From assembly GCA_003222395.1 (NCBI GenBank), contig QHWB01000040.1, positions 508,488 through 572,487 of the forward strand: a DNA stretch of 64,000 nucleotides. Reading direction: 5' to 3'. Both the position numbers and the translations under genes were made by a program. This document shows positions 3,133 through 18,560 of this stretch, one piece after another. The notes under the pieces were generated by a model, which saw only the letters and a program-made list of their open reading frames with translations, did no database searches and was not told where the DNA came from. This DNA is from Acidobacteriota bacterium (GTDB lineage Bacteria; Acidobacteriota; Vicinamibacteria; Vicinamibacterales; CAVVIG01). The stretch's first letter is position 1, and each line of letters opens with the position of its first letter.

Positions 3133-4093
3133 ACGCGAGCGACGCGTCGGAGAGGTTCGACCGTCCCTTCACGAGATAATTCGTCGCCGCCAGCAGCAGA
3201 CAGTCCACCAGCGCCGACTTCCCTTTCTCGTAGTTCGACGCGGCCAGGGTCCGATCGAAATGAACGGCGCGGCCGCCGGCGCGCGCGCGCGGCGCGCGCT
3301 CGACCGAGACGACGCGATCGGGGAACTCGCGGCGCATGAACTCGACGAACTCCGATTCGTCGGTCGCGACGAGCAGCTGGTACGTTCGAGACCCTGCAGC
3401 ATCGAGCGCCGATCGCACTTCCATCGCATACGTCTCGTACGGCACGCGTGACACCCGGTAATCGGCGAGCCATCCCGTCACTCCGTGCGTCGAGTCGGTG
3501 CCGCGGTAATGCACGCCCACGACGTACGCGTCGGGCTCGAGCGACGAAGCGATCCATTGCGAGACCTCGTCGAGGATCTCCGATCGGACCCGAACGTGCG
3601 TCGTGAGAAGGCGATACAACTGCTCACGATCGATCCCGTACGTCATCGGGTACAGATACGGCGTCGTCCCGTTGACGTCGTCGCAGAACCCGCCGTGCCG
3701 GCCGTACTTCGCGATTCGCCTCTTCAGGTGGACCTCGTCTCGCGCACCGGCGCTCGGACTCGTGCGCATCTCGTCGGAATCGAAGAAGTAGGTCCACCAG
3801 TTCGGACCGCGCTGCGGATCGAGATACAGCGGGCTCCGAAAATCGACGCGGACGCCGGCGGCGCCGTGCGCCTCGGCGTACGCGAGCGCGCCGAGCACCG
3901 AGTGAAACTCCGAGAACATCCCGGCCCACGCCGACAGCTTCGGAAAACCCTGGCGCGCATGCAGCACCATCATTTTGCCGCGCACGTCGGGTTCGGGCAG
4001 CCAGCCGCGCAGCCGGTTGCGAATGCTCCGACTGAGCGACGCTTTTTCGCGCCGCCGAAACGCACTCTGCTGCGACCGGTACCAATCGGTCAT
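3095..4093 (-). CDS. Fucosyltransferase-like glycosyltransferase (NodZ/FUT8-type HxRxTD motif)
   Basis: A 332-residue soluble protein. The diagnostic block is VVGVHYRGTDSTHG near residues 191-204, which matches the peptide motif I (HxRxTD) of alpha-1,6 and protein-O-type fucosyltransferases that bind GDP-fucose. A second conserved area, YQLLVATDESEFVEFMRREFPDRVV, resembles the ATDD region of the same fold. No membrane segment is seen, so it would act in the cytoplasm on a lipid-linked acceptor. Its ATG overlaps the stop of the ABC exporter gene by four bases (ATGA), placing it last in a four-gene operon running from 7477. The donor sugar is inferred from the motif only. Other HxRxxD enzymes of unknown specificity exist. 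Confidence 0.7.
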   Translation of the reverse strand: MTDWYRSQQSAFRRREKASLSRSIRNRLRGWLPEPDVRGKMMVLHARQGFPKLSAWAGMFSEFHSVLGALAYAEAHGAAGVRVDFRSPLYLDPQRGPNWWTYFFDSDEMRTSPSAGARDEVHLKRRIAKYGRHGGFCDDVNGTTPYLYPMTYGIDREQLYRLLTTHVRVRSEILDEVSQWIASSLEPDAYVVGVHYRGTDSTHGVTGWLADYRVSRVPYETYAMEVRSALDAAGSRTYQLLVATDESEFVEFMRREFPDRVVSVERAPRARAGGRAVHFDRTLAASNYEKGKSALVDCLLLAATNYLVKGRSNLSDASLAFNPRLPYSFCVR

Positions 4094-5820
4094 TGCACGA
4101 CGAGCTGGCTCTGGATCAACTGGCGATAGAACGCGGACGTCTGCATCAGCCCGTCGTGCGTGCCGCTGTCGACGATGCGGCCGTGATCGATCACGACAAC
4201 GCGATCGACCGTCGCGACGGTCGACAGCCGATGCGCGATGATGAGCGTCGTCGGACGATAGTCGATCGATCGCAGCGCCTCCTGCACGATCGATTCGAGC
4301 TCGGCGTCGAGCGCGCTCGTCGCTTCGTCGAGAATCAGAATCTTCGGGCGCCGGAGGATGGCGCGCGCAATCGCCAGCCGCTGCCGCTGCCCGCCCGACA
4401 GCTGAACGCCGCGATCGCCGATGCGCGTCTCGTACCCGGCCGGCAGCCGGTGAATGTACTCGTCGACGCACGCCAGGGCGGCCGCGTCCTCGATGTCCGC
4501 GACGGTCGCCGCGTCGACGCCGTACGCGATGTTCTCGGCAATCGATCGGGAGAACAGCACCGGGTCCTGCTGGACCGTCGCGATCTGCGATCGCAGCCAG
4601 GCCGGATCGACCGTGCGGATGTCGCGTCCGCCGACCGTCACCGAGCCTTCGTCGGGATCGTAGAAGCGCAGCAGCAGATTGACCAGCGTCGACTTCCCCG
4701 AGCCCGACTTGCCGACGACAGCGACGATCTCGCCCGGCCGGATTCGAAGATCGATACCCTTCAGCGCCTCGACTTCCGCCCGCGTCGGGTAGCGGAACCG
4801 CACGCCTTCGAACGCGATCGACCGGTCGAGCGCGTCCGAGCGATCGCCGCCCTCGGAGGGAATCGACGGCTGGCGGCCGATCAGATCGAAGATCCATTCG
4901 GTCGCGCCGCTCGCGCGCATCGACTCGGCGGCGAAGCGCGAGGCGTTGCGAAACCCGCGGGCGACGAGCATCGCGTACAGCACGAACGAAATGAGCGACC
5001 CGGTCGTCAGCCGGCCCGCGACGATCAGATTGCCGCCGACCCAGATCGCGAGCAGCGCGGCGCATTCGCCGGCGACGAACGACACGCCGCCGAGCGCCGA
5101 GTGCGCGACGATCTTCCGGCGGGCGAATTCGACTGCGCGATCGCTCTGCCGCTCGTAGCGCGCCGCTTCGGCCGCCTCCTGCGAGAAGGCGCGGACGGTT
5201 CGAATGCCGCCGACCACCTCGGACGCGGCCGCGCCGGCCTCGGCGTGCGCCTGCTGCATGTCGCTCGCGAGGACGCGGACGCGGCGGCCGAGAATCGACG
5301 TGGCGACGACGATCGGCGGCACGGCGAGCAGCGTCAGCAGCGTGAGCCGGGTGGAGGTGTAGAACAGCAGCGCCGTTCCGCAGACGGCGAAGACCGAGAA
5401 GCGCAGCGCGTCGGCGAGCTCCTCGCCGAGGACGAACTGCAGCGCCGGCACGTCGGCCCACAGCCGCGTGGTGATCTCGCCGGTGTCGCGGCGATCGAAG
5501 AACTGGATGTCCTGTCGCAGCAGCGTCTGGAAGACGACGCGGCGCAGGCGCGCGCCGACGCGTTCCGCGCCGAGATTGAAACAGTAGTCGCGCGCGAACG
5601 TCGCGCCGGCTTCGACGAGCAGGATCCCGACCATCAGGAGCGCGAGCTCGTTCAATCGATCGAGCCGTCGTCCCTGAATGCCCTCGTCGATGATGAGCCG
5701 AATGACCTGCGGGTACGCGAGCCCTGTTCCGATGCTGAGCAGAACGAAGAGCACACCGGGCCCATACAGCCGGCGCTCGGTCCACACGACGGCCGCGATG
5801 CGTCGAAGCTGGCCGCTCAC
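4090..5820 (-). CDS. ABC exporter, fused permease-ATPase (MsbA/lipid-glycan exporter type)
   Basis: A 576-residue half-transporter. The first about 310 residues form a six-helix type-I exporter membrane domain, with the usual QDIQFFDRRDTGEI coupling block. The ATPase follows, with Walker A GKSGSGKST at about 369-377, Q-loop VQQDPVLF, signature LSGGQRQR at about 472, Walker B ILILDEATSALD at about 490-501 and H-loop IIAHRLST. The GTG start at 5820 overlaps the upstream stop as GTGA. It works as a homodimer in the inner membrane. Given its place between glycosyltransferase genes, the likely cargo is a lipid-linked oligosaccharide or glycolipid, which is inference from context. Confidence 0.9.
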   Translation of the reverse strand: MSGQLRRIAAVVWTERRLYGPGVLFVLLSIGTGLAYPQVIRLIIDEGIQGRRLDRLNELALLMVGILLVEAGATFARDYCFNLGAERVGARLRRVVFQTLLRQDIQFFDRRDTGEITTRLWADVPALQFVLGEELADALRFSVFAVCGTALLFYTSTRLTLLTLLAVPPIVVATSILGRRVRVLASDMQQAHAEAGAAASEVVGGIRTVRAFSQEAAEAARYERQSDRAVEFARRKIVAHSALGGVSFVAGECAALLAIWVGGNLIVAGRLTTGSLISFVLYAMLVARGFRNASRFAAESMRASGATEWIFDLIGRQPSIPSEGGDRSDALDRSIAFEGVRFRYPTRAEVEALKGIDLRIRPGEIVAVVGKSGSGKSTLVNLLLRFYDPDEGSVTVGGRDIRTVDPAWLRSQIATVQQDPVLFSRSIAENIAYGVDAATVADIEDAAALACVDEYIHRLPAGYETRIGDRGVQLSGGQRQRLAIARAILRRPKILILDEATSALDAELESIVQEALRSIDYRPTTLIIAHRLSTVATVDRVVVIDHGRIVDSGTHDGLMQTSAFYRQLIQSQLVVQ

Positions 5821-6704
5821 ACCGTGCACAGTCCCATCTTCGTCAGCTTCTCGTCCATGCATGCTTCGAGCAGCTGGAATTTGCTGCCTCGTTCGATTGG
5901 CGCATCCCACTGATTGTGCCAGTGCCAGGCGAACGCGCCGTCGTAGAAATTGGCGCTCGCGGGCGTCTTCCTGAACGGCTTGAACTCCGGGTCGGCCTGC
6001 CACTCCGTGTTGAAGAACGGCGATGGGAACACGCTGATCCGATGACCCCGGTCGATGGCGCGCTTCACGTTCTCGCGGCCCCAGTTGTACTTGCCGGGCC
6101 GGATGTCGATGACGCCGCGGATCAGCTCCTCCGCGAACGCGCTTCCTTGACGCAGCCGCATCAACGCGGGCGCGTAGACGTCGTCGAACCGATCCCACTG
6201 GTACACGAACTCCTGATCGAGAAAGACGCCGAGGCTTCGCAGCAGCACCGTGTCCATGTCGGCATAGACGCCGCCGTAATTGTGGAGCGCCAGAATGCGG
6301 AACAGGTCGCCGTCGCGATAGGCGCGGCGATCGCGCTGGCGATAGATGTTCGGATGCGCCTCGAGCGCCGTTCCGCGCGCTTCGGCCGCGGCATCGTAGA
6401 TGCGCAGCGTGACGAACGGCAGCAGCGGCTGCAGCCACGCGTTCGACGAGAGATCCGCGTCGGACCAGAGCACGAGCGAACACAACGATCGATCCTGCGT
6501 CGCGAGGAACGCCTTGACCGGCAGCGCCTGCTTGCGGCCGAAACGGCGGACCGTCGGCCACAGGCCGCCCCCGCGCTCGCGCCAATACATGTGGAAGGCG
6601 ATCGGCGCGCGCGGCGGAACGTCCGGCAGCGCGCGGCAGAAATCCAGCGCCTTGCGCCAGTCGTGATAGAGCTCGTAGTGGGTCGCTGGGGAAATGCTGA
6701 TCAA
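5817..6704 (-). CDS. DXD-type glycosyltransferase (GT32 / Gly_transf_sug family)
   Basis: A 295-residue cytoplasmic protein. The sugar-binding DXD block NYGGVYADMDTVLLRSL at about residues 140-156 is the hallmark of the Gly_transf_sug family (OCH1-like and capsular polysaccharide synthesis enzymes), where the Asp pair binds a metal and the nucleotide-sugar. A typical IAFHMYWRE strand occurs near the N terminus and a conserved HWHNQW-type motif near the end. Translation probably begins at TTG 6704, which overlaps the upstream TGA as TTGA. No better start in frame fits the family, whose N terminus is short. It is the second gene of the 7477-3095 operon and probably adds one sugar to the exported glycan. 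Confidence 0.8.
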   Translation of the reverse strand: MISISPATHYELYHDWRKALDFCRALPDVPPRAPIAFHMYWRERGGGLWPTVRRFGRKQALPVKAFLATQDRSLCSLVLWSDADLSSNAWLQPLLPFVTLRIYDAAAEARGTALEAHPNIYRQRDRRAYRDGDLFRILALHNYGGVYADMDTVLLRSLGVFLDQEFVYQWDRFDDVYAPALMRLRQGSAFAEELIRGVIDIRPGKYNWGRENVKRAIDRGHRISVFPSPFFNTEWQADPEFKPFRKTPASANFYDGAFAWHWHNQWDAPIERGSKFQLLEACMDEKLTKMGLCTV

Positions 6705-7480: not shown

Positions 7481-8440
7481 GTGAAGCTTAGGTCATTTCC
7501 GTGGACCGCGCCAAAGCCGTGGGAGGCCCCGGCGCGCGGTGTTTGCGCGACGGGGTGGAAGGCGGGGTGGAAGGCTGGGTGTCCACGCTGGCTGACCTAC
7601 GACGAGTGGAACGTCGGCGTCGCTGCGCTCGATCGTCCGCTGCAGACGATTGAAGAGCTGCTTCCACTGCGGAACATTCGGTGGCTCCCGCCGCAGCCGC
7701 CGCTCTCGCTGCTCGCCGATCCGTTTCCGTACCGCCACGACGGGCGCGAGTGGCTGCTCGTGGAGCGATACAGTCATCGCAAACGCGTGCGCGGCCGCAT
7801 CGCGCGCATCGATCCCGATCATCCGGCGGCGATCGAGACCGTCATCGAGCGCGATCGACACGTGTCGTATCCGTTCACGTTCGCCTACGGCGCCGACGTC
7901 TACTGCGCGCCCGAAATGAGCCAGGAGGACGGCTGCGTCATCTATCGGCTCGCACCCGATGGCCGCTGGACGGCCACGCATCACGTGATGCGTGGACAGC
8001 GGCTGGTCGATCCGACGCTCTTTCGGCTGAACGATCGCTGGTGGCTCTTCGCCACCGAGCCTCCGCCGTCGCACAACGACTCGCTGCATGCGTACTATGC
8101 GGACGCGCTCGAGGGTCCGTGGACTCCCCACGCGAGGAATCCGGTGAAGCGCGATCCGTCGTCGGCGCGGCCCGGCGGCCGGCCGTTCACGGTCGCGCGG
8201 CGCCTGTATCGTCCCGCGCAGGACTGCAGCGTCACGTACGGCGGCGCCGTTCACGTGATGGAGATCGAGACGCTGACGCCGACCGAGTTCCGCGAGTCGA
8301 TCGCGCTGCGGCTCGAGCCCGATCCTGACTGGCCCTACCCCGACGGCCTGCATCATCTCGTCGTCGACGGCGCGCGCGTCTATTTCGATGCAAAACGCTC
8401 GCACGTCGACTGGCTGCTGTGGCTGAAGGTATGGCTCTAG
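7481..8440 (+). CDS. GINT1 N-terminal-like beta-propeller protein
   Basis: A 319-residue protein with the repeating blades of a five-bladed GH32/43-like propeller: WNVGVAALD at about 43-51, LADPFPYRHDGREWLLVERY, SYPFTFAYGADVYCAPEM, LVDPTLFRLNDRWWLFATE and RPAQDCSVTYGGAVHVMEI. This series is characteristic of the domain found at the N terminus of plant glucosamine inositolphosphorylceramide transferase 1 and of stand-alone bacterial homologues in polysaccharide loci. The N-terminal codons contain a perfect 12-base duplication that gives GWKAGWKAG. Translation starts at GTG 7481. No other start is evident before the first blade. It overlaps the following GT2 gene by ten bases, so the two likely form a unit. 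Its biochemical role in bacteria is not known to me. Confidence 0.65.
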   Translation: MKLRSFPWTAPKPWEAPARGVCATGWKAGWKAGCPRWLTYDEWNVGVAALDRPLQTIEELLPLRNIRWLPPQPPLSLLADPFPYRHDGREWLLVERYSHRKRVRGRIARIDPDHPAAIETVIERDRHVSYPFTFAYGADVYCAPEMSQEDGCVIYRLAPDGRWTATHHVMRGQRLVDPTLFRLNDRWWLFATEPPPSHNDSLHAYYADALEGPWTPHARNPVKRDPSSARPGGRPFTVARRLYRPAQDCSVTYGGAVHVMEIETLTPTEFRESIALRLEPDPDWPYPDGLHHLVVDGARVYFDAKRSHVDWLLWLKVWL

Positions 8441-9279
8441 GCGCCGCATACTCGATCGTGACGCCCACGTTCGAACATGCGTCGAGCATCGCCGACTATC
8501 TCGATGCGACGCTCCGATCGGCGTCGCTTCCCTTTCACTGGATCATCGTCGACGACGGGTCGCGCGACGGCACGGCGGATCGGGTGGAAGCCTGGCTGGC
8601 GGCGCATCCGTCGCCACGCATCGCGCGAGCGACGGTCATCCGCAATCAGCGGCCGATGTTCGAGACGGCGTGCGACAACATCGGCTTCAGAGTCGCGGAG
8701 ACCGACGTCGTCATCGAAATCCAGGCGGACATTCACGTCCGCGAGCCGCGGTTCGACGCGCTCATGATTGAGGCGCTCGAGACGTCGCCGAAGCCGTCGG
8801 CGATTTCCGCCCGGTGCGGCCACACGTTCGCGGCGCTCAAACCGGCGTCGCCGTTGTCGAGGTTGTTCAGGCGCTCAACGGGCGATTCAGTCGGTCTGTG
8901 CGGCCGCGCGATCGAAACGCCTCACATCATCGAGACGATTCGCGGAAACTTGTATCGATGCGAGACCGTGAATCGCGGGCCGTGGCTCGTGCTGAAACGC
9001 GATCTGGAGCGGCAGGGCTATCTCGACGAGCGGCACTTCTTCCTCGGCAACGACGATCACGACTATCACCGGCGCCTGTTCGAGGCGGAGGGCCGCCGTC
9101 CGCTGTACGTGCCGATGGCCATTCACGCACCGCTCGGTCTGGGCGCGAACCGGCGGAAACGCAGCGGGATCAACAAGGAGATTTTCGACCGGTTGAGCGC
9201 CGAAAAACGCGGCAGCCCGGCGTTCCACCGCTTCCTTGCGTCGATCCAGTCGTCGATGCCGCCGCAGCGGATCAAATGA
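8431..9279 (+). CDS. Family 2 glycosyltransferase
   Basis: A 282-residue GT-A protein. It opens with YSIVTPTFEHASSIADYLDATL, has the nucleotide-binding WIIVDDGSRDGTADRV segment (Asp pair at about residues 41-42), then the EIQADIHVREPRFDALM block that replaces the usual DXD region with a Q-A-D-I motif. A later GNDDHDYHRRL block corresponds to the catalytic ED(Y) area. There are no membrane helices. ATG 8431 was chosen because it lies after an AAGG and gives the family N terminus; GTG 8419 is an alternative. It overlaps the GINT1-like gene and faces away from the transferase operon at 7477, together forming one divergent glycan locus. Confidence 0.85.
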   Translation: MALGAAYSIVTPTFEHASSIADYLDATLRSASLPFHWIIVDDGSRDGTADRVEAWLAAHPSPRIARATVIRNQRPMFETACDNIGFRVAETDVVIEIQADIHVREPRFDALMIEALETSPKPSAISARCGHTFAALKPASPLSRLFRRSTGDSVGLCGRAIETPHIIETIRGNLYRCETVNRGPWLVLKRDLERQGYLDERHFFLGNDDHDYHRRLFEAEGRRPLYVPMAIHAPLGLGANRRKRSGINKEIFDRLSAEKRGSPAFHRFLASIQSSMPPQRIK

Positions 9280-10061: not shown

Positions 10062-12548
10062 CTACCGCTCGAAGCGCACCTGAAGGCGGAACTGTCGGTA
10101 CTCCGAGTTGTAGAACGATCCGAACGCCGGCGACGCGAGGTTCGCCTGGACGTCGGTGGGCAGGAACGCGTTCAGCGCGTTGTAGGCGCGCAATCCAATC
10201 CACGGTTCGAACTTGAAGATCCTGAATCGGCGCTCGATCGCCAGCTCGAGACGCGCGTAGGTCGGGAAGCGCAGGCTGTTGCGCGCGCCGACGAACTCGA
10301 GCATCTCGTTCGTCACCGAGTAGGGCAGCCCGTTGCGCAAATCGAACGTGCCGACGAACAGCCACCGCGGCGTCGGCATGAGCCGGCCGCGCGCGAGCAT
10401 CCGGTTCGGCGCGTCGGCATTCGACCGCGCGTACGCGTTCGCGCCGACGACGGGCCACAGCACGGCGTCGAAGTAGTTGCTGAGCGCGTTCAGGTCGCCG
10501 CTCGTCGCCGATCGCGTATAGGTGATGTTGAAGTCCGCGGTCGGCAGGCGCGAGAAATGAACGTTCGCCTCGAGCTCGCGATAGCGCGAGCGCCCGCCGC
10601 TCGAGAGCAGCAGCGCCGGCAACCCCGCCGACGTGATCGGATCGACGATCAGCTCGTGGCTGCCCTGCCGATCGATCGCGCTCAGGTGCACCGACCACAT
10701 CTTGTTGAACCGATGGTCGTAGCCGACGTCCCACGTGCGGCTGCGCGGCGTCTGCAGATCGGAGGTCGTGTGCGCGATGAGCGCCGGCGGTGCCAGCGCC
10801 ACACCGTCGGCGCCGAACCGCGTCTCGATCGCGTCCCCGAATTGATCGAACGCGCCGGCCGTGGACGGCGTGCGCTCGAAGAACAACCCGAAGCCGCCGC
10901 GCAGCGTCGCGCTGCCCGACTCCGTGAGCAGCACCGCCGTGCCGACGCGCGGCGTCACGTTGAACTGTTCGGCGACGCCGTCGCGATCCAGCCGGCCGCC
11001 GAACTCCAGATACCAGCGCGTGCCCGGCTGATATCGATCTTGCGCGAAGAACGCCGCGTCGGTGCTGCGCACCAGCTGCGCCGACAGCGGCCGATAATCG
11101 AGCCGGCGCGCGAGCGATCCGTCGGCGCGCTCGATCAGCACCGGCCGGCTCATGCTCGATCCGCTGTAGTGCGCGCCCAGCAGATCGACGCCGACCTTGA
11201 AGAGATGCAGGCCACCGAGCGCGCTGCGGCTGCCCGACGCGTTCTCCACGAGCTGATACGTGCCGGTATAGCGATGCTGGCGGTTGAAGAAGTTGCCGAG
11301 CGTCGTGTCCGGCCTCAGCACCATCGGCTGCAGACCCTGCGGCCGCACGTCGGTCTGAAAATCGTGGAGCTGAACCATCGTCTCCGAGAACAGAGAGTCG
11401 GTCCAGAGCGCGCGTTCCATCACGCTCGCGCGGTTTGCGTGCGCGTTGATATCGACCGTCGCGTCGGGCGGCGTGAACGTTCCAAGCGTGTCGAACGCTG
11501 AGCGGCTCGGGAAGATGCCGCCGGTCGCGATCATCGACTGCCGCGTCGAGAGGTTCGCGTCGACGCGCGTGAACGAGCTGAACCACTTCGAGGTGCGCAC
11601 CTCGTCTTCGGGACGGCTCGCCACGTCGGTCGCAGCATATCGGTACTGCGCGGTCTGCTCGACGAACAGCCGATCCCTGACGAGCGGGCCGCCGGTCTCG
11701 ATGCGCGGCGCGAACACGCCGATGCCTCGCACGTCGAACGGTGAGCCGCCGCGTTTGGTGCGGAAGGTCGGATCGACGTTGTTGAGCCGCAGACGCCACC
11801 GGTCGCCGGCGCGGCGCGTCTGAATCACGACGAGACCGGACGAAAAGCGGCCGTACTCGACGGCGTACGGATTCGGCAACACCGCAATCGAATCGATCGC
11901 ATCGTCGGGCAGCGACACCTGCGTCAGCCCGGTCGTCGGGTTGACAAGCGTGCTCGGTCCCAGCTGAACGCTGGCCTGGCTCGGCCGTCCGCCTTTGATG
12001 CTGACGCCTCCGGGAACTTCGATGATGCTCGCCAGGAGGCGAAGCGCCGCCTGAAAACCTCCGCCCGGCGCGTACTGGTCCAGTTCCTTGCCGCCGATGC
12101 TGTCGCTCGGCGCAAGTGTGCCTTCGTTGACGACCGTGGTCGAGGCCGCGACGACGTCGACGGTTTGTGAAATTCCTGTGATGGCAAGATCGATGGACGC
12201 GTCGGCCGGTTTTTCGGAAACGACGTCGACACTCACCGCGGCCGTATCGAATCCGCTCAGCGTGGCGACGACGCGATACTTTCCGGCGGGCAGATTGTCG
12301 AACCGGTAGCGGCCGTCGCCATCAGTGATCGCCTGCGCGACGTCGCGATCCGTGATGTCCTTGACCACGACCTCGGCGCCCGGCAAACGGACCGATCCAT
12401 TCTGTGTCGTGACATGGCCCTGGACAATGCCGACACCGACACTCGGCGTCTGCGCGGCAGCGAAGACCGGCGAAACGAGACACAGCAGGAAAGCGAGAAA
12501 GGACTTCGTCAACGAATCGGCGCCACTTTCAGGCGGGGGAACCGTCAT
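10062..12548 (-). CDS. TonB-dependent receptor-like outer membrane protein with CarboxypepD_reg domain
   Basis: An 828-residue outer membrane protein. Residues 1-33 form a signal peptide. About 40-120 is a carboxypeptidase-regulatory-like domain (GIVQGHVTTQNGSVRLPGAEVVVKD, then DGDGRYRFDNLPAGKYRV). About 130-250 is a plug-like domain (VSIKGGRPSQASVQLG, DAIDSIAVLPNPYAVEYGRFSSGLVVIQT). The remainder is a beta-barrel with many alternating hydrophobic strands ending in FRLQVRFER. This domain order is common in Acidobacteriota and Bacteroidota receptors for large substrates such as glycans or peptides. The substrate cannot be told from the sequence. ATG 12548 follows the PAP2 stop by four bases. 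TTG 12512 would give a shorter signal peptide. Confidence 0.85.
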   Translation of the reverse strand: MTVPPPESGADSLTKSFLAFLLCLVSPVFAAAQTPSVGVGIVQGHVTTQNGSVRLPGAEVVVKDITDRDVAQAITDGDGRYRFDNLPAGKYRVVATLSGFDTAAVSVDVVSEKPADASIDLAITGISQTVDVVAASTTVVNEGTLAPSDSIGGKELDQYAPGGGFQAALRLLASIIEVPGGVSIKGGRPSQASVQLGPSTLVNPTTGLTQVSLPDDAIDSIAVLPNPYAVEYGRFSSGLVVIQTRRAGDRWRLRLNNVDPTFRTKRGGSPFDVRGIGVFAPRIETGGPLVRDRLFVEQTAQYRYAATDVASRPEDEVRTSKWFSSFTRVDANLSTRQSMIATGGIFPSRSAFDTLGTFTPPDATVDINAHANRASVMERALWTDSLFSETMVQLHDFQTDVRPQGLQPMVLRPDTTLGNFFNRQHRYTGTYQLVENASGSRSALGGLHLFKVGVDLLGAHYSGSSMSRPVLIERADGSLARRLDYRPLSAQLVRSTDAAFFAQDRYQPGTRWYLEFGGRLDRDGVAEQFNVTPRVGTAVLLTESGSATLRGGFGLFFERTPSTAGAFDQFGDAIETRFGADGVALAPPALIAHTTSDLQTPRSRTWDVGYDHRFNKMWSVHLSAIDRQGSHELIVDPITSAGLPALLLSSGGRSRYRELEANVHFSRLPTADFNITYTRSATSGDLNALSNYFDAVLWPVVGANAYARSNADAPNRMLARGRLMPTPRWLFVGTFDLRNGLPYSVTNEMLEFVGARNSLRFPTYARLELAIERRFRIFKFEPWIGLRAYNALNAFLPTDVQANLASPAFGSFYNSEYRQFRLQVRFER

Positions 12549-12552
12549 TGTA

Positions 12553-13344
12553 TCAGACGCCGCTGAGGCCGACCGCGACCCAGGCAGCCACAGCCAAGAG
12601 CGCTCCCCCTGCAACATCCATGACGTAGTGATATCGGCCGACCACACAGGCGACGCCGATGCTGACGGCGAGAAGCCCGAACACCGCGCCGGCAAAGGGC
12701 AGGGCCGGGGCAACGGCGAGCGCGACCGCAAGCGATCCGGCGACGTGCCCGCTCGGGAACGTGTTTGCACGAGTCGTGAGGTGCTGCACCATTTGCGATG
12801 CCGCGTGGTGAACGGCCGGATCGGTGAGCATCGGCTTCGGCTCGAGCGCCCAGGGCGGTCGCGTTTGAAACACGGTCAGCGGCGCGAATGCACCGAGCTC
12901 GGCCGTCAGCACCATCGTCCAGTACCGATCGGCCCGCGCGGAGTGGCCGGCGAGCACGAGCGCCGCGAAACCCGCCGGCACGATCAAAAAGCACAGCATG
13001 TACACGATCTCGAGGTACGCGACGAACGCGCGCGGCCACCGCGCGAACCGCGTCGCCGGATCTCCGAGCACGCGCCGGTCCCACGCAACGAGCCACGATT
13101 CGAGTCGCGGCGAAGGCGCGACGAAGAGCCATCCGGTGATGTAGTAGCCGACGAGGACGTACGCGGCGGGCAGCCAGTCACGGAGCGGCGAAGTCACATT
13201 CACCGCGGCATTCCACACGAGCGCGACCATCGACAGCGACGCCGCCGCGACGCGGGCACGCCGCGCCATCGGCAGCCGCTGCATCGTGGCGGCAACGGCG
13301 AGATAAAAAAAGTACGCGATCGCGATCGCCTCAGGTGGCCGCAC
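12553..13344 (-). CDS. PAP2-family membrane phosphatase
   Basis: A 263-residue protein with about six membrane helices. The phosphatase motifs are TFPSGHVAGSLAVALA at about residues 192-207 (the SGH block) and GRYHYVMDVAGGALLA at about 232-247, where His and Asp complete the catalytic relay. The first block K-x6-RP is present only in degenerate form as QTRPPW. Members dephosphorylate lipid phosphates or undecaprenyl pyrophosphate at the outer face of the inner membrane. The gene begins with GTG 13344, 28 bases from the divergent ceramide-synthase-like gene, and is followed after four bases by the TonB receptor. Its position next to a sphingolipid cluster makes a lipid-phosphate substrate attractive, but undecaprenyl pyrophosphate is equally possible. 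Confidence 0.85.
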   Translation of the reverse strand: MRPPEAIAIAYFFYLAVAATMQRLPMARRARVAAASLSMVALVWNAAVNVTSPLRDWLPAAYVLVGYYITGWLFVAPSPRLESWLVAWDRRVLGDPATRFARWPRAFVAYLEIVYMLCFLIVPAGFAALVLAGHSARADRYWTMVLTAELGAFAPLTVFQTRPPWALEPKPMLTDPAVHHAASQMVQHLTTRANTFPSGHVAGSLAVALAVAPALPFAGAVFGLLAVSIGVACVVGRYHYVMDVAGGALLAVAAWVAVGLSGV

Positions 13345-13372: not shown

Positions 13373-14488
13373 ATGGCGTCGACCGAAGTCCGCGCCGTAC
13401 GCGGCCGCGCGGAGTTTCACAGGTTCATCGATTACGCCTACGAGATCAACGCACGCGATCCTCACTGGATTCCGCCGCTGCGGATGTCGGAACGCGAGCG
13501 GCTCACGCCGAAGAAGAATCCGTTTTTCGCGCACGCGGACGTCGAGCTGCTGCTCGCCTGGCGCGGCCGCCAGATCGTGGGCCGCATCGCGGCGATTGAC
13601 GATCGGCTGCACAACCAGACGCACGGCGACAACGTCGCGATGTTCGGCTTTTTCGAAGCGGAGGACGGCGAAGCCGCGCGGACGCTGCTCGAACGCGTCG
13701 AGGCGTGGGCGCGCACACGCGGCCGCGCGCACGTGCGCGGTCCGCTCAACCCGTCGCTCAACGAGAGCGCGGGATTGTTGATCGAGGGCTTCGACACCGA
13801 TCCGATGCTGCTGATGCCGCACAATCCGCCCGCCTATGCCGACTTCATCGAGTCGGCGGGATACCGGAAGGCCAAGGATCTGTTCGCCTGGCTCTACGCG
13901 CTCGATCGGGAATTTCCGGCCGTCGCGGCGAAGCTGGCCCGACGGATGCGCGATCGTCTCGACCTCGCGTTGCGTCCGCTCAACTTGAAGGAATTTACGA
14001 GCGAAGTCGCGCGGCTCCGGGTTCTGTATCGCGAAGCCTGGGATCGCAACTGGGGCTTCGTGCCGCCGACCGAAGAGGAATTCGGACGCATCGCCCGCGA
14101 GATGAAGCCGATCTTCGATTCGCGGTGCGCGGTCTGCGCGGAGATCGACGGACGCATGGTGGCGTGCGCCATCGCCATCCCCGACATCAACCAGGCGCTC
14201 AGGAGCACGAACGGCCATCTGAACGCGCGCACGCTCTGGCGACTCCTCGGCCGCAGCCGTCACATCGATCAGGCGCGCCTCCTCCTGCTCGGCGTCGCGG
14301 CGGAGTACCGGTCGCACGGCCTCTATCCGTTGATGCTGTTCGATCTGCACCGGCAGATGGCGCCGGCGTACCGCCGCGTCGAGTTCTCGTGGGTGCTCGA
14401 GGACAACCAGAACATCAACCGGCCCGCCGAAGAAGCCGGCGCGACGCGGTACAAGACCTATCGGATTTATCAGAAGGCGCTCGCCTGA
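13373..14488 (+). CDS. bcerS: GNAT-fold N-acyltransferase, candidate bacterial ceramide synthase
   Basis: A 371-residue protein of the long GNAT type. The first half has EINARDPHWIPPLRMSERERL and KNPFFAHADVELLLAWRGRQIVGRIAAI, followed by HVRGPLNPSLNESAGLLIEGFDTDPMLLMPHNPPAYADFIESAGY. The second half repeats a GNAT fold with RLLLLGVAAEYRSHGLYPLMLFDLH in place of the acyl-CoA loop. This architecture matches the family to which the Caulobacter enzyme that acylates the sphingoid base belongs. The assignment rests mainly on neighbours: reductase, serine palmitoyltransferase, acyl-AMP ligase and carrier protein follow. Without them I would say only long-form acyltransferase. The TGA stop lies inside a REP-like repeat. 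Confidence 0.7.
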   Translation: MASTEVRAVRGRAEFHRFIDYAYEINARDPHWIPPLRMSERERLTPKKNPFFAHADVELLLAWRGRQIVGRIAAIDDRLHNQTHGDNVAMFGFFEAEDGEAARTLLERVEAWARTRGRAHVRGPLNPSLNESAGLLIEGFDTDPMLLMPHNPPAYADFIESAGYRKAKDLFAWLYALDREFPAVAAKLARRMRDRLDLALRPLNLKEFTSEVARLRVLYREAWDRNWGFVPPTEEEFGRIAREMKPIFDSRCAVCAEIDGRMVACAIAIPDINQALRSTNGHLNARTLWRLLGRSRHIDQARLLLLGVAAEYRSHGLYPLMLFDLHRQMAPAYRRVEFSWVLEDNQNINRPAEEAGATRYKTYRIYQKALA

Positions 14489-14502
14489 AAGGCTCGCGCT
14501 AC
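14479..14502. repeat. REP-like repeat family A, single arm
   Basis: A copy of the element that begins GCTCGCCTGAAAGG and continues CTCGCGCTAC. It covers the last four codons and stop of the GNAT gene, so the TGA that ends the protein is the TGA of the repeat, and it lies between that gene and the reductase gene. Confidence 0.85.
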
Positions 14503-14511
14503 GATCGTCGC

Positions 14512-15426
14512 GTGCCAACCGTCGCGGTCACCGGCGCCTCGGGGTTCATCGGCAGCAACCTCACAGCGCACCTGTCGGCGCGTGGAGACGACGTTCGCGC
14601 CGTCCGCCGTCCGTTCGACCGGCCGGACCTGATCGAGACGCTTCGCGGCTGCGAGGTCGTGGTTCACCTCGCCGGCGTGGTGGCAGCCGCTCGCGACGAT
14701 GAGTACGTCGCGGCGAACGTGACGGCGACGCGCGTCGTCGCCGAATCGACGCGCGCGGCGGGTGCGCGCCTCGTCCACATCTCGAGCCTCGCCGCCGCCG
14801 GTCCCGCATCGCGTGCTGCGCCGCGCGTCGAAGACGACCCGCCCGCGCCGATGACGGCCTACGGCCGCAGCAAGCTCGCCGGCGAGCGGGCGATCGAGGG
14901 CGTGCGTGGTTTGCAGTGGACGATCCTCCGGCCCGGCGTCGTCTATGGACCGCGCGATCGCGCCGTTCTGGCGCTGTTCCGGATGGCGCGCGCCGGCATG
15001 CTGCCGCTGGTCGGCCGCGAGACCGCCGCGTACACGATGATTCACGTGGCCGACGTCGTCCGCGCGATCGAGGCCGCCGTCGATCGCGGCGACGCGTCGG
15101 GCGAGACGATGTTCGTCGGCCATCCCGAGCCGGTGAGCGCGCGCGCGCTCGTCGAAGGCGTGCGCGACGCGGCCGGCGGCGCGGCGACGATCGTCCGCGT
15201 TCCGCGGGCCCTTCTGTGGATCGCCGCGCGCGCGGGCGACGCCATCGGGGCGCTGCGCGGCAAACCGGTCGTGATCAATCGACGGCGGTACGACGAGCTG
15301 AATGCTGAAGGGTTCGTCTGCCGCGTGGATCGGCTGCGCGACCGTCTCGGCATCGTCGCCGAGATCGCCTTACGCGACGGCCTCGCGCAAACAGCGAACT
15401 GGTACCGGTCGAACGGTTGGTTGTAG
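14512..15426 (+). CDS. cerR: NAD-dependent epimerase-type reductase, candidate 3-ketosphinganine reductase
   Basis: A 304-residue extended short-chain dehydrogenase. The nucleotide motif TGASGFIGSNL is at about residues 7-17, the HLAGV strand follows, HISSLAA carries the catalytic Ser, and YGRSKLAGE holds the Tyr-x-x-x-Lys pair. The C-terminal half is of the NAD-dependent epimerase/dehydratase type rather than the classical SDR type. The bacterial CerR enzyme that reduces 3-ketosphinganine has this form. The start is GTG 14512, ten codons after the repeat. It is co-directional with the GNAT gene and convergent with the serine palmitoyltransferase gene (12 bases between stops). On its own the sequence would support only a sugar or sterol dehydratase; the ceramide role comes from context. 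Confidence 0.7.
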   Translation: MPTVAVTGASGFIGSNLTAHLSARGDDVRAVRRPFDRPDLIETLRGCEVVVHLAGVVAAARDDEYVAANVTATRVVAESTRAAGARLVHISSLAAAGPASRAAPRVEDDPPAPMTAYGRSKLAGERAIEGVRGLQWTILRPGVVYGPRDRAVLALFRMARAGMLPLVGRETAAYTMIHVADVVRAIEAAVDRGDASGETMFVGHPEPVSARALVEGVRDAAGGAATIVRVPRALLWIAARAGDAIGALRGKPVVINRRRYDELNAEGFVCRVDRLRDRLGIVAEIALRDGLAQTANWYRSNGWL

Positions 15427-15432
15427 AGGGAC

Positions 15433-15495
15433 GCTCGCCTAAAAGGCTCGCGCTACCGTGTGCCCGCGCTGTAGCGCGAGGCTCTCAGCCGAGCG
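15433..15495. repeat. REP-like repeat family A, inverted pair
   Basis: Two arms in opposite orientation, 15433-15456 (GCTCGCCTAAAAGG and onward) and 15471-15495 (GTAGCGCGAGGCTCTCAGCC and onward), form a hairpin between the convergent reductase and palmitoyltransferase genes. The last 19 or so codons of the palmitoyltransferase and its TAG stop lie inside it. A bidirectional terminator role is possible. Confidence 0.85.
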
Positions 15496-16668
15496 GGAGC
15501 GTGCCCGCGCGAAAATTTCCAGCGCGCGGTCGATTTGATCGGGTGTGTGCGCCGCCGAGCAGCTCGCACGCAGCACGCAATCGTCCTTCGGACATCCCGG
15601 CGGCACGATGAGGTTCACGTACAGACCCGCCGTGAGGAGACCCTGCCACAGCGCGATCGTCCGCTCCTCGTCTCCGATCAGAATCGGAACGATTGGCGAT
15701 TCGCTTTCGCCGATCGCGTAGCCGACGTCGCGCAGCCCGCGGCGCAGCGCGCGGATGTTCGTCCACAGCCGCTCGCGCAGCTCGGGATGCTGCCGGATGA
15801 CGCGGACCGCGGCCGCCACGCTCGCGACGTTGGACGGCGACCCTGACGCGGTGAAGACGTACGCGCGCGCCAGGAAGTGGAGCGCGCGCAATTCGGGATG
15901 GTCCGACACGCAGACGCCACCGATGCCCGCGAGCGATTTCGAGAAGGTGCCGACGATGAAATCGACGCGGTCGAGGACGCCCTGATCCTCGGCGCACCCG
16001 AGGCCTCTCGCGCCATACGTGCCGAGCGAATGCGCTTCGTCGACGAGCAGGTAGGCGCCGTTCGCGCTGCAGATGTTGGCGATGTCGAGGAGCGGCGCCA
16101 CGTCGCCGCGAATGGAATACAACCCTTCGACGACGACGAGCCGGTTGCGCTCGCCCCGCGGCAGCCGCTCCAGCTTCCTGCGCAGGCTGTCGGCCGAATT
16201 GTGGCGGAACCCGATGACCTGCGATGGCGTCTGCCGCGTCGCGTCATAGATGCTGGCGTGGCTGTCGCTGTCGATGAGGATGACGTCACCCGCACCGCAC
16301 AAGCCGCCGATCAGCGACAGGTTCGCCTGATAGCCGGTACTGAAGATGATGGCGTGGCGCTTGCCGAACCATTCGGCGAAGTCGCGCTCGAGCGCTTCAT
16401 GCAGCGCGAAGGTGCCGTTGGCCGTGCGCGATCCGGTAGTGCCGGTGCCGTAGTCGTCGAGGGCGCGGCGCGCCGCGTCGACGACGTCGGGATGCTTGGT
16501 CAGTCCGAGATAGTTGTTCGACCCGAACATCAGGGTCGGGCGTCCCTGCACGATGACCTCGCATGGACCGAGCACGCCCTCGATAACGGTCAGCCCGGGC
16601 GTCGCCGCCGCGTCCTCGAACATCGCGAGGCGCGATTCGATTGCACGGAGTTTGTGGAGCAGATCCAT
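15439..16668 (-). CDS. spt: Alpha-oxoamine synthase, candidate serine palmitoyltransferase
   Basis: A 409-residue PLP enzyme of fold type I. SNNYLGLTKHP, then GTGTTGSRTANGTFALHEALE, STGYQANLSL, DSDSHASIYDA and LLVDEAHSLGTYG are all conserved blocks of the family. The PLP lysine lies in VGTFSKSLAGIGG at about residue 243; the TFSKS form, rather than the TLGKA of glycine C-acetyltransferase, is typical of serine palmitoyltransferase. The product would be 3-ketosphinganine from Ser and an acyl thioester. The gene directly abuts the acyl-AMP ligase stop (TAAATG). The C-terminal about 19 residues (SRSAESLALQRGHTVARAF) have no family counterpart and are coded by a repeat. Confidence 0.85.
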   Translation of the reverse strand: MDLLHKLRAIESRLAMFEDAAATPGLTVIEGVLGPCEVIVQGRPTLMFGSNNYLGLTKHPDVVDAARRALDDYGTGTTGSRTANGTFALHEALERDFAEWFGKRHAIIFSTGYQANLSLIGGLCGAGDVILIDSDSHASIYDATRQTPSQVIGFRHNSADSLRRKLERLPRGERNRLVVVEGLYSIRGDVAPLLDIANICSANGAYLLVDEAHSLGTYGARGLGCAEDQGVLDRVDFIVGTFSKSLAGIGGVCVSDHPELRALHFLARAYVFTASGSPSNVASVAAAVRVIRQHPELRERLWTNIRALRRGLRDVGYAIGESESPIVPILIGDEERTIALWQGLLTAGLYVNLIVPPGCPKDDCVLRASCSAAHTPDQIDRALEIFARARSRSAESLALQRGHTVARAF

Positions 16669-18297
16669 TTATGACGCCGTTTCCATCAGCTCGCCGCGCT
16701 CGTACCGCGCTTTGGTCGCCGCGCGCTGCACCTTGCCGCTCGTCGTGCGGCCGACTGTCCCGCTCGGCACGAGCGCCACCTCGTCGACGTACAAACCGAA
16801 GTCGTCGCCGATACGCCGCCGAATCGCGTCGATCAGCACATCGGACGGAACGGTCCCGCTCGGCTCTGCCACGACGACGATGCGATCGGCCCCGCCGCGC
16901 TGCATCGTGCCGAACGCGACCACGCGTCCGCGGCGGACACCGGCCAGATCGTCGACGGCCCACTCGAGATCCTGCGGGTGGAATTTCCGGCCGTTGACGA
17001 TGATGATGTCCTTGACGCGCCCGCAGACGAACAGCTCGCCGTTCGACAGGTAGCCGAGGTCGCCCGTGTACAGCCAACCATCGCGGATCGTCTGCCGCGT
17101 GAGCTCGGCGTCGTTATAGTAGCCCAGCATCACCGAGGGCCCTGCGAGCGCGATTTCACCAATCTGGCCGTCGGCGGCCGGCCGCCCCTCCTCGTCGACG
17201 ATTCGCAACATGTGGCCAGGCAGCGGCGATCCACAGCTCACGAACGCGTCCTCGACGCGCGGCGTCCGATGGCGCGGCGGGAACGTCGCCGCGAGCACGT
17301 GCTCGGCGAGGCCGTAACACGGAAGAAAACTGGTCGCACGGAATCCGGCCGGCGCGAATTTCTCGGCGAAGGCGGCGAGCGTCGGCGGGTGAATCGGCTC
17401 GGCGCCGCAGCCGGCGACGCTCCAGCACGACAGATCGAGTCCCTCGAGATCCTTGTCCTTGACGCGCCGTACGCACAGGTCGTACGCGAAGTTGGGGGCG
17501 AAGCTGATCGTCGCGCGGTGACGCGAGATGGCGCGCAGCCATTCGCCGGGGCGCTTGACGAACACGTGCGGCGGCAGCAGCACGCCCCGGCGCGCCGAGA
17601 ACAACGGGCCGAGCGCCATGCCGATCAGGCCCATGTCGTGATTGAGCGGCAGCCAGCTGACGCCGATGTCGGCGTCGGTCGTCGCAAGCCCCGCCGGTCC
17701 ATTGATCGCGTCGACGTTCGCCGCCAGGTTGCGGTGGGAGAGCGCGACGCCTTTCGGGCGCGACGTCGATCCCGACGTGAACTGGACGAGGACGATGTCG
17801 TCGAGCGACGGCGGCGCCGCCGGTTCGGGCGCGTCGCCGTCGAAGTCTTCGCGAGAGAGCACGAGCGCCAGATCGGGGCAGCTCGCGCGCGCGGCCTCGA
17901 ACGATGGCGCGAGCGTTCTGGAGGTGACGACGACACGCGCGCTGCAGGCGCGCAGGATCCCCGCGGTCTGCTCCAGATACCGCGGCAGCTCGCCCATCGT
18001 CGAGGGCGGATACAGCGATGCGGGCACGACGCCCGCCATCGACGCGCCGAAGAGCGTCGTGAGGAACTGCTCGGCGTCGGCGAGGACGATCGCGACCAGG
18101 TCGCCGCGGCGGACGCGGGCGTCGCGAAGCGCGCGCGCGACCTGCCACGACAGGCGCTGCATGTCGGCGTACGAGCGGTACGTGCCGCTCGCGGCGTCGG
18201 GCGCGGCGCCTCCCCCGTCCGCCGAGAGGAACAGATAGCCGGCGTCAGCGCGCGCGGCCTCGGCAAGCGCCTCAGGCAACGTCCGCAATCGGGCCAT
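16669..18297 (-). CDS. Fatty acyl-AMP ligase / acyl-ACP synthetase
   Basis: A 542-residue member of the ANL superfamily. The P-loop-like motif VQFTSGSTSRPKGV is at about residues 169-182, followed by ISWLPLNHDMGLIG-type and SCWSVAGCGAEPI blocks. The late GDLGYLSNGELFVCGRVKD and NGRKFHPQDLE blocks are those of fatty acyl-AMP ligases rather than CoA ligases. It would activate a fatty acid as acyl-AMP and load it onto the small carrier protein encoded upstream, with which its start overlaps by one base (TGATG). In Caulobacter an acyl-ACP synthetase of this kind is one of five genes needed for ceramide formation. Loss of the third-motif CoA-binding features was not checked in detail. Confidence 0.85.
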   Translation of the reverse strand: MARLRTLPEALAEAARADAGYLFLSADGGGAAPDAASGTYRSYADMQRLSWQVARALRDARVRRGDLVAIVLADAEQFLTTLFGASMAGVVPASLYPPSTMGELPRYLEQTAGILRACSARVVVTSRTLAPSFEAARASCPDLALVLSREDFDGDAPEPAAPPSLDDIVLVQFTSGSTSRPKGVALSHRNLAANVDAINGPAGLATTDADIGVSWLPLNHDMGLIGMALGPLFSARRGVLLPPHVFVKRPGEWLRAISRHRATISFAPNFAYDLCVRRVKDKDLEGLDLSCWSVAGCGAEPIHPPTLAAFAEKFAPAGFRATSFLPCYGLAEHVLAATFPPRHRTPRVEDAFVSCGSPLPGHMLRIVDEEGRPAADGQIGEIALAGPSVMLGYYNDAELTRQTIRDGWLYTGDLGYLSNGELFVCGRVKDIIIVNGRKFHPQDLEWAVDDLAGVRRGRVVAFGTMQRGGADRIVVVAEPSGTVPSDVLIDAIRRRIGDDFGLYVDEVALVPSGTVGRTTSGKVQRAATKARYERGELMETAS

Positions 18298-18560
18298 CAG
18301 CTGTTCGAGCGCTCTTCGACGAGCTGCGCCACCTGCGCCACGACCTGGGCGACCGTGCGCGTCGCCGGCACATCATTCAATGGAATGGAAATGTCGAAGC
18401 GATCCTCGAGCTCGGCAATCACTTCGAGCACCTGCAGCGAATCGAATCCGAGGTCGGCGACGAGGTCGCTAGCAAGCGTCGGTTCGATCGGCCGCCGGCT
18501 GACGTTCTTGAGTACGTCGATGACACCCTCTTCGATTTGGGCAGACGCGGGCTGCGACAT
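18297..18560 (-). CDS. Dedicated acyl carrier protein
   Basis: An 87-residue carrier protein. The phosphopantetheine attachment Ser is residue 41 in ADLGFDSLQVLEV, a perfect match to the DSL motif with the GFDS variant. Net charge is acidic as usual. It heads the three-gene operon with the acyl-AMP ligase and the palmitoyltransferase, so it probably presents the acyl chain to the latter, the role of the specialised AcpR of Caulobacter. It is distinct from the housekeeping carrier protein expected elsewhere in the genome. Confidence 0.9.
   Translation of the reverse strand: MSQPASAQIEEGVIDVLKNVSRRPIEPTLASDLVADLGFDSLQVLEVIAELEDRFDISIPLNDVPATRTVAQVVAQVAQLVEERSNS

Follow-up and report, generated by a model that had tools for sequence, protein, structure and literature searches.

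A candidate acyl-ACP-fed ceramide biosynthesis cluster of mosaic ancestry in an Acidobacteriota bacterium

Results

In a 64,000-nucleotide stretch of an Acidobacteriota genome (GenBank assembly GCA_003222395.1, contig QHWB01000040.1, positions 508,488 to 572,487; hereafter the window), five adjacent genes at 13373-18560 appear to encode a pathway for ceramide biosynthesis. An initial annotation had placed five genes here in two convergent units, and our reading of the open reading frames, together with family matches, confirmed their coordinates, strands, and families. The plus-strand unit holds a gene for a 371-aa tandem-GNAT N-acyltransferase, a homologue of E. coli YghO and candidate ceramide synthase (bCerS/CerS; 13373-14488). 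After a 23-nt gap, it is followed by a gene with a GTG start for a 304-aa epimerase-type reductase of the short-chain dehydrogenase/reductase (SDR) superfamily, the candidate CerR acting on the 3-oxo group (14512-15426; PF01370, 112.5 bits). The minus-strand unit begins with a specialised, AcpR-like acyl carrier protein (ACP) of 87 aa with a GFDSL serine (18297-18560; PF00550, 44.6 bits). It continues with a 542-aa fatty acyl-AMP ligase (FAAL), an AasR-like acyl-ACP synthetase (16669-18297; PF00501, 214 bits; NF006624, 449.6 bits), and ends with a 409-aa alpha-oxoamine synthase, the serine palmitoyltransferase (SPT), whose pyridoxal phosphate lysine, K244, lies in GTFSKS (15439-16668). The ACP and FAAL genes overlap in TGATG, the FAAL gene abuts the SPT gene (TAA directly followed by ATG), and the ends of the two units are 12 nt apart. 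Since four of the five genes match Pfam or NCBIfam models and neighbourhoods in sister genomes keep homologues arranged in the same way, we take the five genes to be real rather than chance reading frames. The initial annotation regarded the cluster as complete; all five functions are present, but a sixth gene was overlooked. This gene lies on the minus strand (12553-13344; PF14378, 52 bits), diverging from the GNAT gene with its start 28 nt away. It encodes a PAP2_3 membrane protein, a candidate ceramide phospho-head-group transferase resembling Aur1 and inositol phosphorylceramide (IPC) synthases.

The oxoamine synthase had been proposed to be an SPT, and this identity was upheld. It scored 510.5 bits against NF047599, the NCBI SPT equivalog, which has a cut-off of 500, and a phmmer search of the PDB gave the SPT of S. 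wittichii (2x8u; 382 bits, 3.7e-113) as the nearest solved structure. In the SPT tree, the SPTs of the window's bacterial family, including that of the window, are sister to the rhodobacterial SPTs of S. wittichii, Roseomonas, E. coli, and Pseudomonas (support 100/100), among which are assayed enzymes. Forcing this family to group with Rubrobacter-type SPTs was rejected (approximately unbiased (AU) test, p 9e-11). Part of the taxon set of this tree and of the GNAT tree below came from a single scan whose hits were ordered by likeness to the window GNAT, a selection that may favour relatives of that protein. A KBL or BioF identity was ruled out by the NCBIfam models for these enzymes, which score far under their own cut-offs, and by the tree, in which E. 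coli BioF and KBL fall outside the SPT clade. A paralogous oxoamine synthase in the same genome, which passes TIGR01825 and PRK06939, also lies outside it. The C-terminal tail of the window SPT (RSRSAESLALQRGHTVARAF) differs from those of its relatives. Separately, a dispersed repeat, AAGGCTCGCGCTAC, has eight matches in the window at two or fewer mismatches (positions 14489, 15443, 15471, 19834, 19874, 28763, 48813, and 49120), with 1.08 expected; one pair lies within the 3' end of the SPT gene.

The proposal of a FAAL and a DSL-type carrier protein likewise stood, with both families and the GFDSL motif recovered and both proteins having homologues in the spt-yghO cluster of E. coli. The window FAAL matches fatty acyl-AMP ligases, and its best PDB entry is 3pbk, whose printed segment shares 99.7% identity with the FAAL from the spt-yghO cluster of E. 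coli PN43. It would be a dedicated AasR-like enzyme, with a gene that abuts that of the SPT. The window ACP scored 52 bits against the E. coli AcpR-like ACP, versus 31-33 bits against housekeeping AcpPs, and a separate AcpP is encoded in the same genome. The segment LEDRFDISIPLN is common to the window ACP and the E. coli AcpR-like protein (LEDRFDISIPIN), with weak tree support. An adjacent FAAL and ACP pair is present in the window's family and in rhodobacterial clusters, and is nearly absent from the remaining loci that were fetched.

The window GNAT is 35-48% identical to the GNATs of named spt clusters over 97-99% of its length. Its AlphaFold model (mean predicted local distance difference test (pLDDT) 91.8) has tandem GNATs as its best PDB folds. 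In the GNAT tree, the proteins of the window's family group with those of Rubrobacter and Trueperaceae (100/100), and placement with rhodobacterial GNATs was rejected (AU p 4e-6). The earlier assignment to bCerS is thus supported in that the protein is still a ceramide-cluster GNAT, with the qualification that it is of the Rubrobacter type and outside the rhodobacterial lineage. The SDR joins those of ceramide clusters and stands away from four further SDRs encoded in its own genome, with modest SH-like approximate likelihood ratio (SH-aLRT) support of 82-94. No signal peptide was visible in it. The initial annotation had named membership of unrelated families by the GNAT and the epimerase as evidence against its reading; in our trees, both are found among ceramide-cluster homologues, the epimerase with modest support.

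The cluster is therefore a mosaic, with an SPT that belongs with those of Rhodobacteria and a GNAT that belongs with Rubrobacter-type ceramide synthases. The two trees conflict significantly, so the two convergent units have different histories, and the locus is a variant rather than a plain member of the acyl-ACP-type pathway.

Comparison with known systems shows the same mixture. In C. crescentus, E. coli BL21(DE3), and S. wittichii, the preferred substrate of the SPT is the acyl form of a dedicated ACP, which a dedicated synthetase supplies; this route has been termed rhodobacterial, with no mention of Acidobacteria and with AasR and AcpR homologues located elsewhere in myxobacterial genomes (PMC9386255). 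The initial annotation equated the five genes with the Caulobacter set; our comparison with that set is indirect, by way of proteins of E. coli, Roseomonas, Pseudomonas, and S. wittichii. As in the rhodobacterial set (aasR, cerR, acpR, spt, cerS; CC_1162-1165/1154 in Caulobacter crescentus, and the E. coli B/yghO type), all five functions are clustered, the SPT is a sister of its SPTs, and a FAAL-ACP feeding module adjoins spt. The host, the lineage of the ceramide synthase, and the gene layout are different. In the window, cerS shares a unit with cerR, and ACP, FAAL, and SPT form the other, whereas cerS is said always to lie in an operon other than aasR-cerR-acpR-spt (PMC11324152). LptFG or CpgABC-type genes do not adjoin the window cluster. 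Clusters of the SPT-bCerS-CerR kind (Myxococcus, Rubrobacter, Streptomyces, Bryobacterales, and others) share with the window the adjacency of GNAT and SDR and a similar SDR type, and the window ceramide synthase is nearest to the Rubrobacter and Trueperaceae version among them. However, the SPTs of those clusters belong to another clade, with no FAAL-ACP pair adjacent.

Each of the window FAAL, ACP, SDR, and GNAT has a homologue in the spt-yghO cluster of E. coli, which in PN43 runs yghO (GNAT), FAAL, SDR, ACP, and SPT. Among 5,426 complete E. coli genomes, 4,022 hold a close copy of the PN43 cluster (at least 80% coverage), and the RefSeq gene name there is spt. E. coli K-12 MG1655 (L125, 3129043-3131340) retains yghO beside an IS5 element where most other E. 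coli genomes have the spt cluster. In K-12, this ceramide synthase homologue is annotated as a putative transcriptional regulator, and the spt part of the cluster is lacking.

Within the window's family, the SPT is widespread (at least 479 bits in 22 of 27 genomes), whereas elsewhere in the order the count is 1 of 73 genomes. The GNAT was found in 19 of the 27 and in none of the five genomes that lack the SPT. In the three that have an SPT and no GNAT, the SPT contig ends at or near the cluster. The cluster layout is common to the sister neighbourhoods fetched. Beyond the family, relatives of the window GNAT occur in at least 583 stretches of the genome collection; the best 80 of these come from many phyla and mostly lie beside an SPT-like gene, in agreement with the 38 phyla with SPT-like genes counted in the Black Sea (PMC11334938). 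The loci of GNAT relatives include spt-GNAT-SDR loci of Bryobacterales and Solibacter. Another family of the order (f11; L041, L042, and L044) carries ACP-FAAL, an oxoamine synthase of a different clade, a FabF-like ketosynthase, a GNAT, PAP2_3, and a distant SDR, a different layout of what would be a pathway of this kind.

A PAP2_3 gene adjoins the cluster not only in the window but also in nine sister loci and three f11 loci. The model of the window protein (pLDDT 91.2) gave a sole Foldseek match below E 0.001, to an IPC synthase with ceramide (9vj4), and the second match was Aur1-Kei1 (9ivc). In structural alignments, the Z score was 15.5 over 243 residues of 9vj4_A and 15.1 over 239 residues of 9ivc_A, while that for LpxE was 15.2 over 162 residues. 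The IPC synthases match residues 3-263 of PAP2_3, whereas the matches of LpxE, PgpB, and G6PC begin only near residue 76. The His-His-Asp residues H200, H239, and D243 are invariant in 12 sequences; phosphatases have the fold core in common with IPC synthases. A PDB profile search gave weak matches to acid and lipid phosphatases only and listed no IPC synthase. In a sister clade, six loci are without a nearby PAP2_3 gene and have a CDP-alcohol phosphotransferase nearby, mostly with a nucleotidyltransferase; none has both. For CDP-inositol-type head-group genes, the window's own genome gave weak generic matches only.

Several other genes in sister genomes and in the window may bear on lipid modification. 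The sphingolipid Delta4-desaturase N-terminal family, PF08557, is represented in 7 of the 27 family genomes, in four of them within the cluster, while 14 control genomes have no member of it. The homologues (e.g., L079:2265-3197, minus strand; also L062, L063, and L067) match PF08557 and PF00487 and have three histidine-box motifs. None was found in the window's own genome, and searching PDB sequences with a desaturase query gave no match. The clusters of L060, L062, L076, and L079 (e.g., L079:9844-11520 and 4062-5162) encode a fusion of a phosphoenolpyruvate (PEP) mutase-like protein and a nucleotidyltransferase, a phosphonopyruvate-decarboxylase-like pair, and an aminoethylphosphonate (AEP) transaminase-like protein. 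These proteins match the corresponding models best, yet score under their cut-offs, and the copies read have the motif EDN-x5-CS in place of EDK-x5-NS, which is diagnostic of PEP mutase (PMC6697681). Phosphonate synthesis in the sister genomes is therefore plausible, not established. As a candidate PEP mutase in the window's own genome, the PF13714 match (G000:C34) was rejected, being a generic isocitrate-lyase-family protein with no nucleotidyltransferase fusion, so the phosphonate idea is limited to the sister genomes.

In the window itself, a gene for a TonB-receptor-like outer-membrane barrel (10062-12548, minus strand; PF00593/PF13620) shares a unit with the PAP2_3 gene and has homologues in 17 of 26 neighbourhoods examined; its start at 12548 was picked by eye from a signal-peptide-like N terminus, and a link to lipid transport would be only a guess. 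A gene at 7481-8440 (plus strand) matches PF24793 (110.6 bits), the N-terminal domain of plant glucosamine inositolphosphorylceramide transferase 1. It lies next to a GT2 glycosyltransferase gene (8419-9279), 5 kb from the ceramide genes, and has a homologue beside the G009 cluster (L078). An MsbA-like ABC transporter (4090-6585, minus strand), common to the sister neighbourhoods L061 and L078, and a sulfatase-fold protein (307-2214, minus strand) might possibly serve as a lipid flippase and a head-group transferase, respectively.

Discussion

We consider it very probable that the locus directs de novo ceramide biosynthesis of the acyl-ACP-fed type. The FAAL would convert a free fatty acid to acyl-AMP and load it onto the dedicated carrier protein, and the SPT would condense the acyl-ACP with L-serine to 3-oxo-sphinganine. 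N-acylation by the tandem-GNAT ceramide synthase and reduction of the 3-oxo group by the SDR would then give dihydroceramide, although the order of these steps is disputed in the literature. Finally, it is somewhat more likely than not that the divergent PAP2_3 protein puts a phospho-head group on the ceramide, the most conjectural of the steps. We base this reading on the equivalog match of the SPT and its place as sister to SPTs that prefer acyl-AcpR, the spt-yghO counterparts, and the conservation of the SPT and GNAT; the sphingolipid-type neighbours in sister genomes, such as the desaturase that was absent from the control genomes, add to it. Several points weigh against it. What the analysis establishes is gene and family identity, conservation, mixed ancestry, and the predicted folds of the GNAT and PAP2_3; sphingolipid production, as predicted in the initial annotation, and every enzymatic step in this organism are inferred from these. 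The residues H137, D210, H213, K244, and R367 of the SPT are common to all aligned oxoamine synthases and by themselves would be no proof of serine specificity. The GNAT has no Pfam, NCBIfam, or PDB sequence match and no curated family model, and the placement of the SDR with CerR rests on the SH-aLRT values given above.

Among the alternatives, the synthase might take alanine, glycine, or cysteate rather than serine, in which case 1-deoxy-ceramides or sulfonolipid-like lipids would be formed and no canonical ceramides. Bacterial 1-deoxyceramides exist (PMC11334938), and at the place of the rhodobacterial PPATPxG, the window SPT subfamily carries the unusual segment PPGCPxDxC. However, the best and above-cut-off match is the SPT equivalog, assayed serine-using SPTs make up part of the sister clade, and the cysteate acyltransferase 28eh scored 198 bits, well below the SPT structure, so we think this improbable. 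It is still less probable that the genes serve some unrelated lipid or secondary metabolite, such as acyl amino ketones or lipopeptides made by a KBL/BioF-type acyltransferase with FAAL-ACP loading. While FAAL/ACP pairs are typical of loading in non-ribosomal peptide and polyketide synthesis, and the GNAT and SDR superfamilies are generic, the cluster has no such synthetase or synthase module. Moreover, BioF, KBL, and the paralogue fall outside the SPT clade, and an SPT-like gene adjoins the GNAT relatives in most of the best 80 loci across many phyla.

The role of PAP2_3 is a closer question, and its answer is compatible with the ceramide pathway either way. It could well be an ordinary lipid-phosphate phosphatase of the PgpB or LpxE kind, outside head-group synthesis: it matches a PAP2 Pfam family, its profile likeness is to phosphatases only, and the Z score for LpxE equals the level of the IPC synthases. 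This also counts against the final step as we propose it. Because these Z scores are tied, they do not discriminate; the N-terminal helices do, and at this level, only IPC synthases align with the whole protein, including those helices. The single Foldseek match under the threshold was likewise an IPC synthase, and the gene is kept by the cluster in nine sister loci and in f11 and is absent from the six loci with a CDP-alcohol phosphotransferase. In Bacteroides thetaiotaomicron, the Aur1-like BT_1522 is needed for phosphoinositol dihydroceramide (PMC9246714). PAP2_3 resembles BT_1522 and the yeast Aur1 IPC synthases (9ivc, 9vj4) in its whole-length fold and its place beside a ceramide pathway, but identity in structural alignment is about 13-15%, and the window cluster is without inositol-lipid genes. 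On these grounds, we lean toward a ceramide phospho-head-group transferase acting in the manner of Aur1 and IPC synthase.

Neither the pathway nor its presence in Acidobacteriota is new, given the spt-GNAT-SDR loci of Bryobacterales and Solibacter and an earlier account of Solibacter, in which ceramides were reportedly found by Halamka and colleagues in 2024. As far as the literature available to us shows, the acyl-ACP-fed version in Acidobacteriota, the mosaic make-up, and the linked modification genes are new. The acyl-ACP-dependent route, described as rhodobacterial, would thereby extend to Acidobacteriota, and a ceramide pathway can evidently draw its modules from more than one lineage.

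The conserved neighbours are candidates for head-group transfer and chain desaturation, processes that are poorly known in bacteria. As a tentative proposal that may well prove wrong, the family could make complex sphingolipids with exchangeable head-group modules on an acyl-ACP-fed core of mixed ancestry. The module would be the Aur1-like PAP2_3 or, in the sister clade, the CDP-alcohol phosphotransferase with the nucleotidyltransferase, and other members would be extended by the eukaryote-like Delta4-desaturase and the set of PEP-mutase-like, phosphonopyruvate-decarboxylase-like, and AEP-transaminase-like proteins. If this is true, Delta4-unsaturated lipids of the ceramide aminoethylphosphonate type are predicted. 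The host is a soil-type Acidobacteriota bacterium, and these findings could help to explain the origins of soil sphingolipids.

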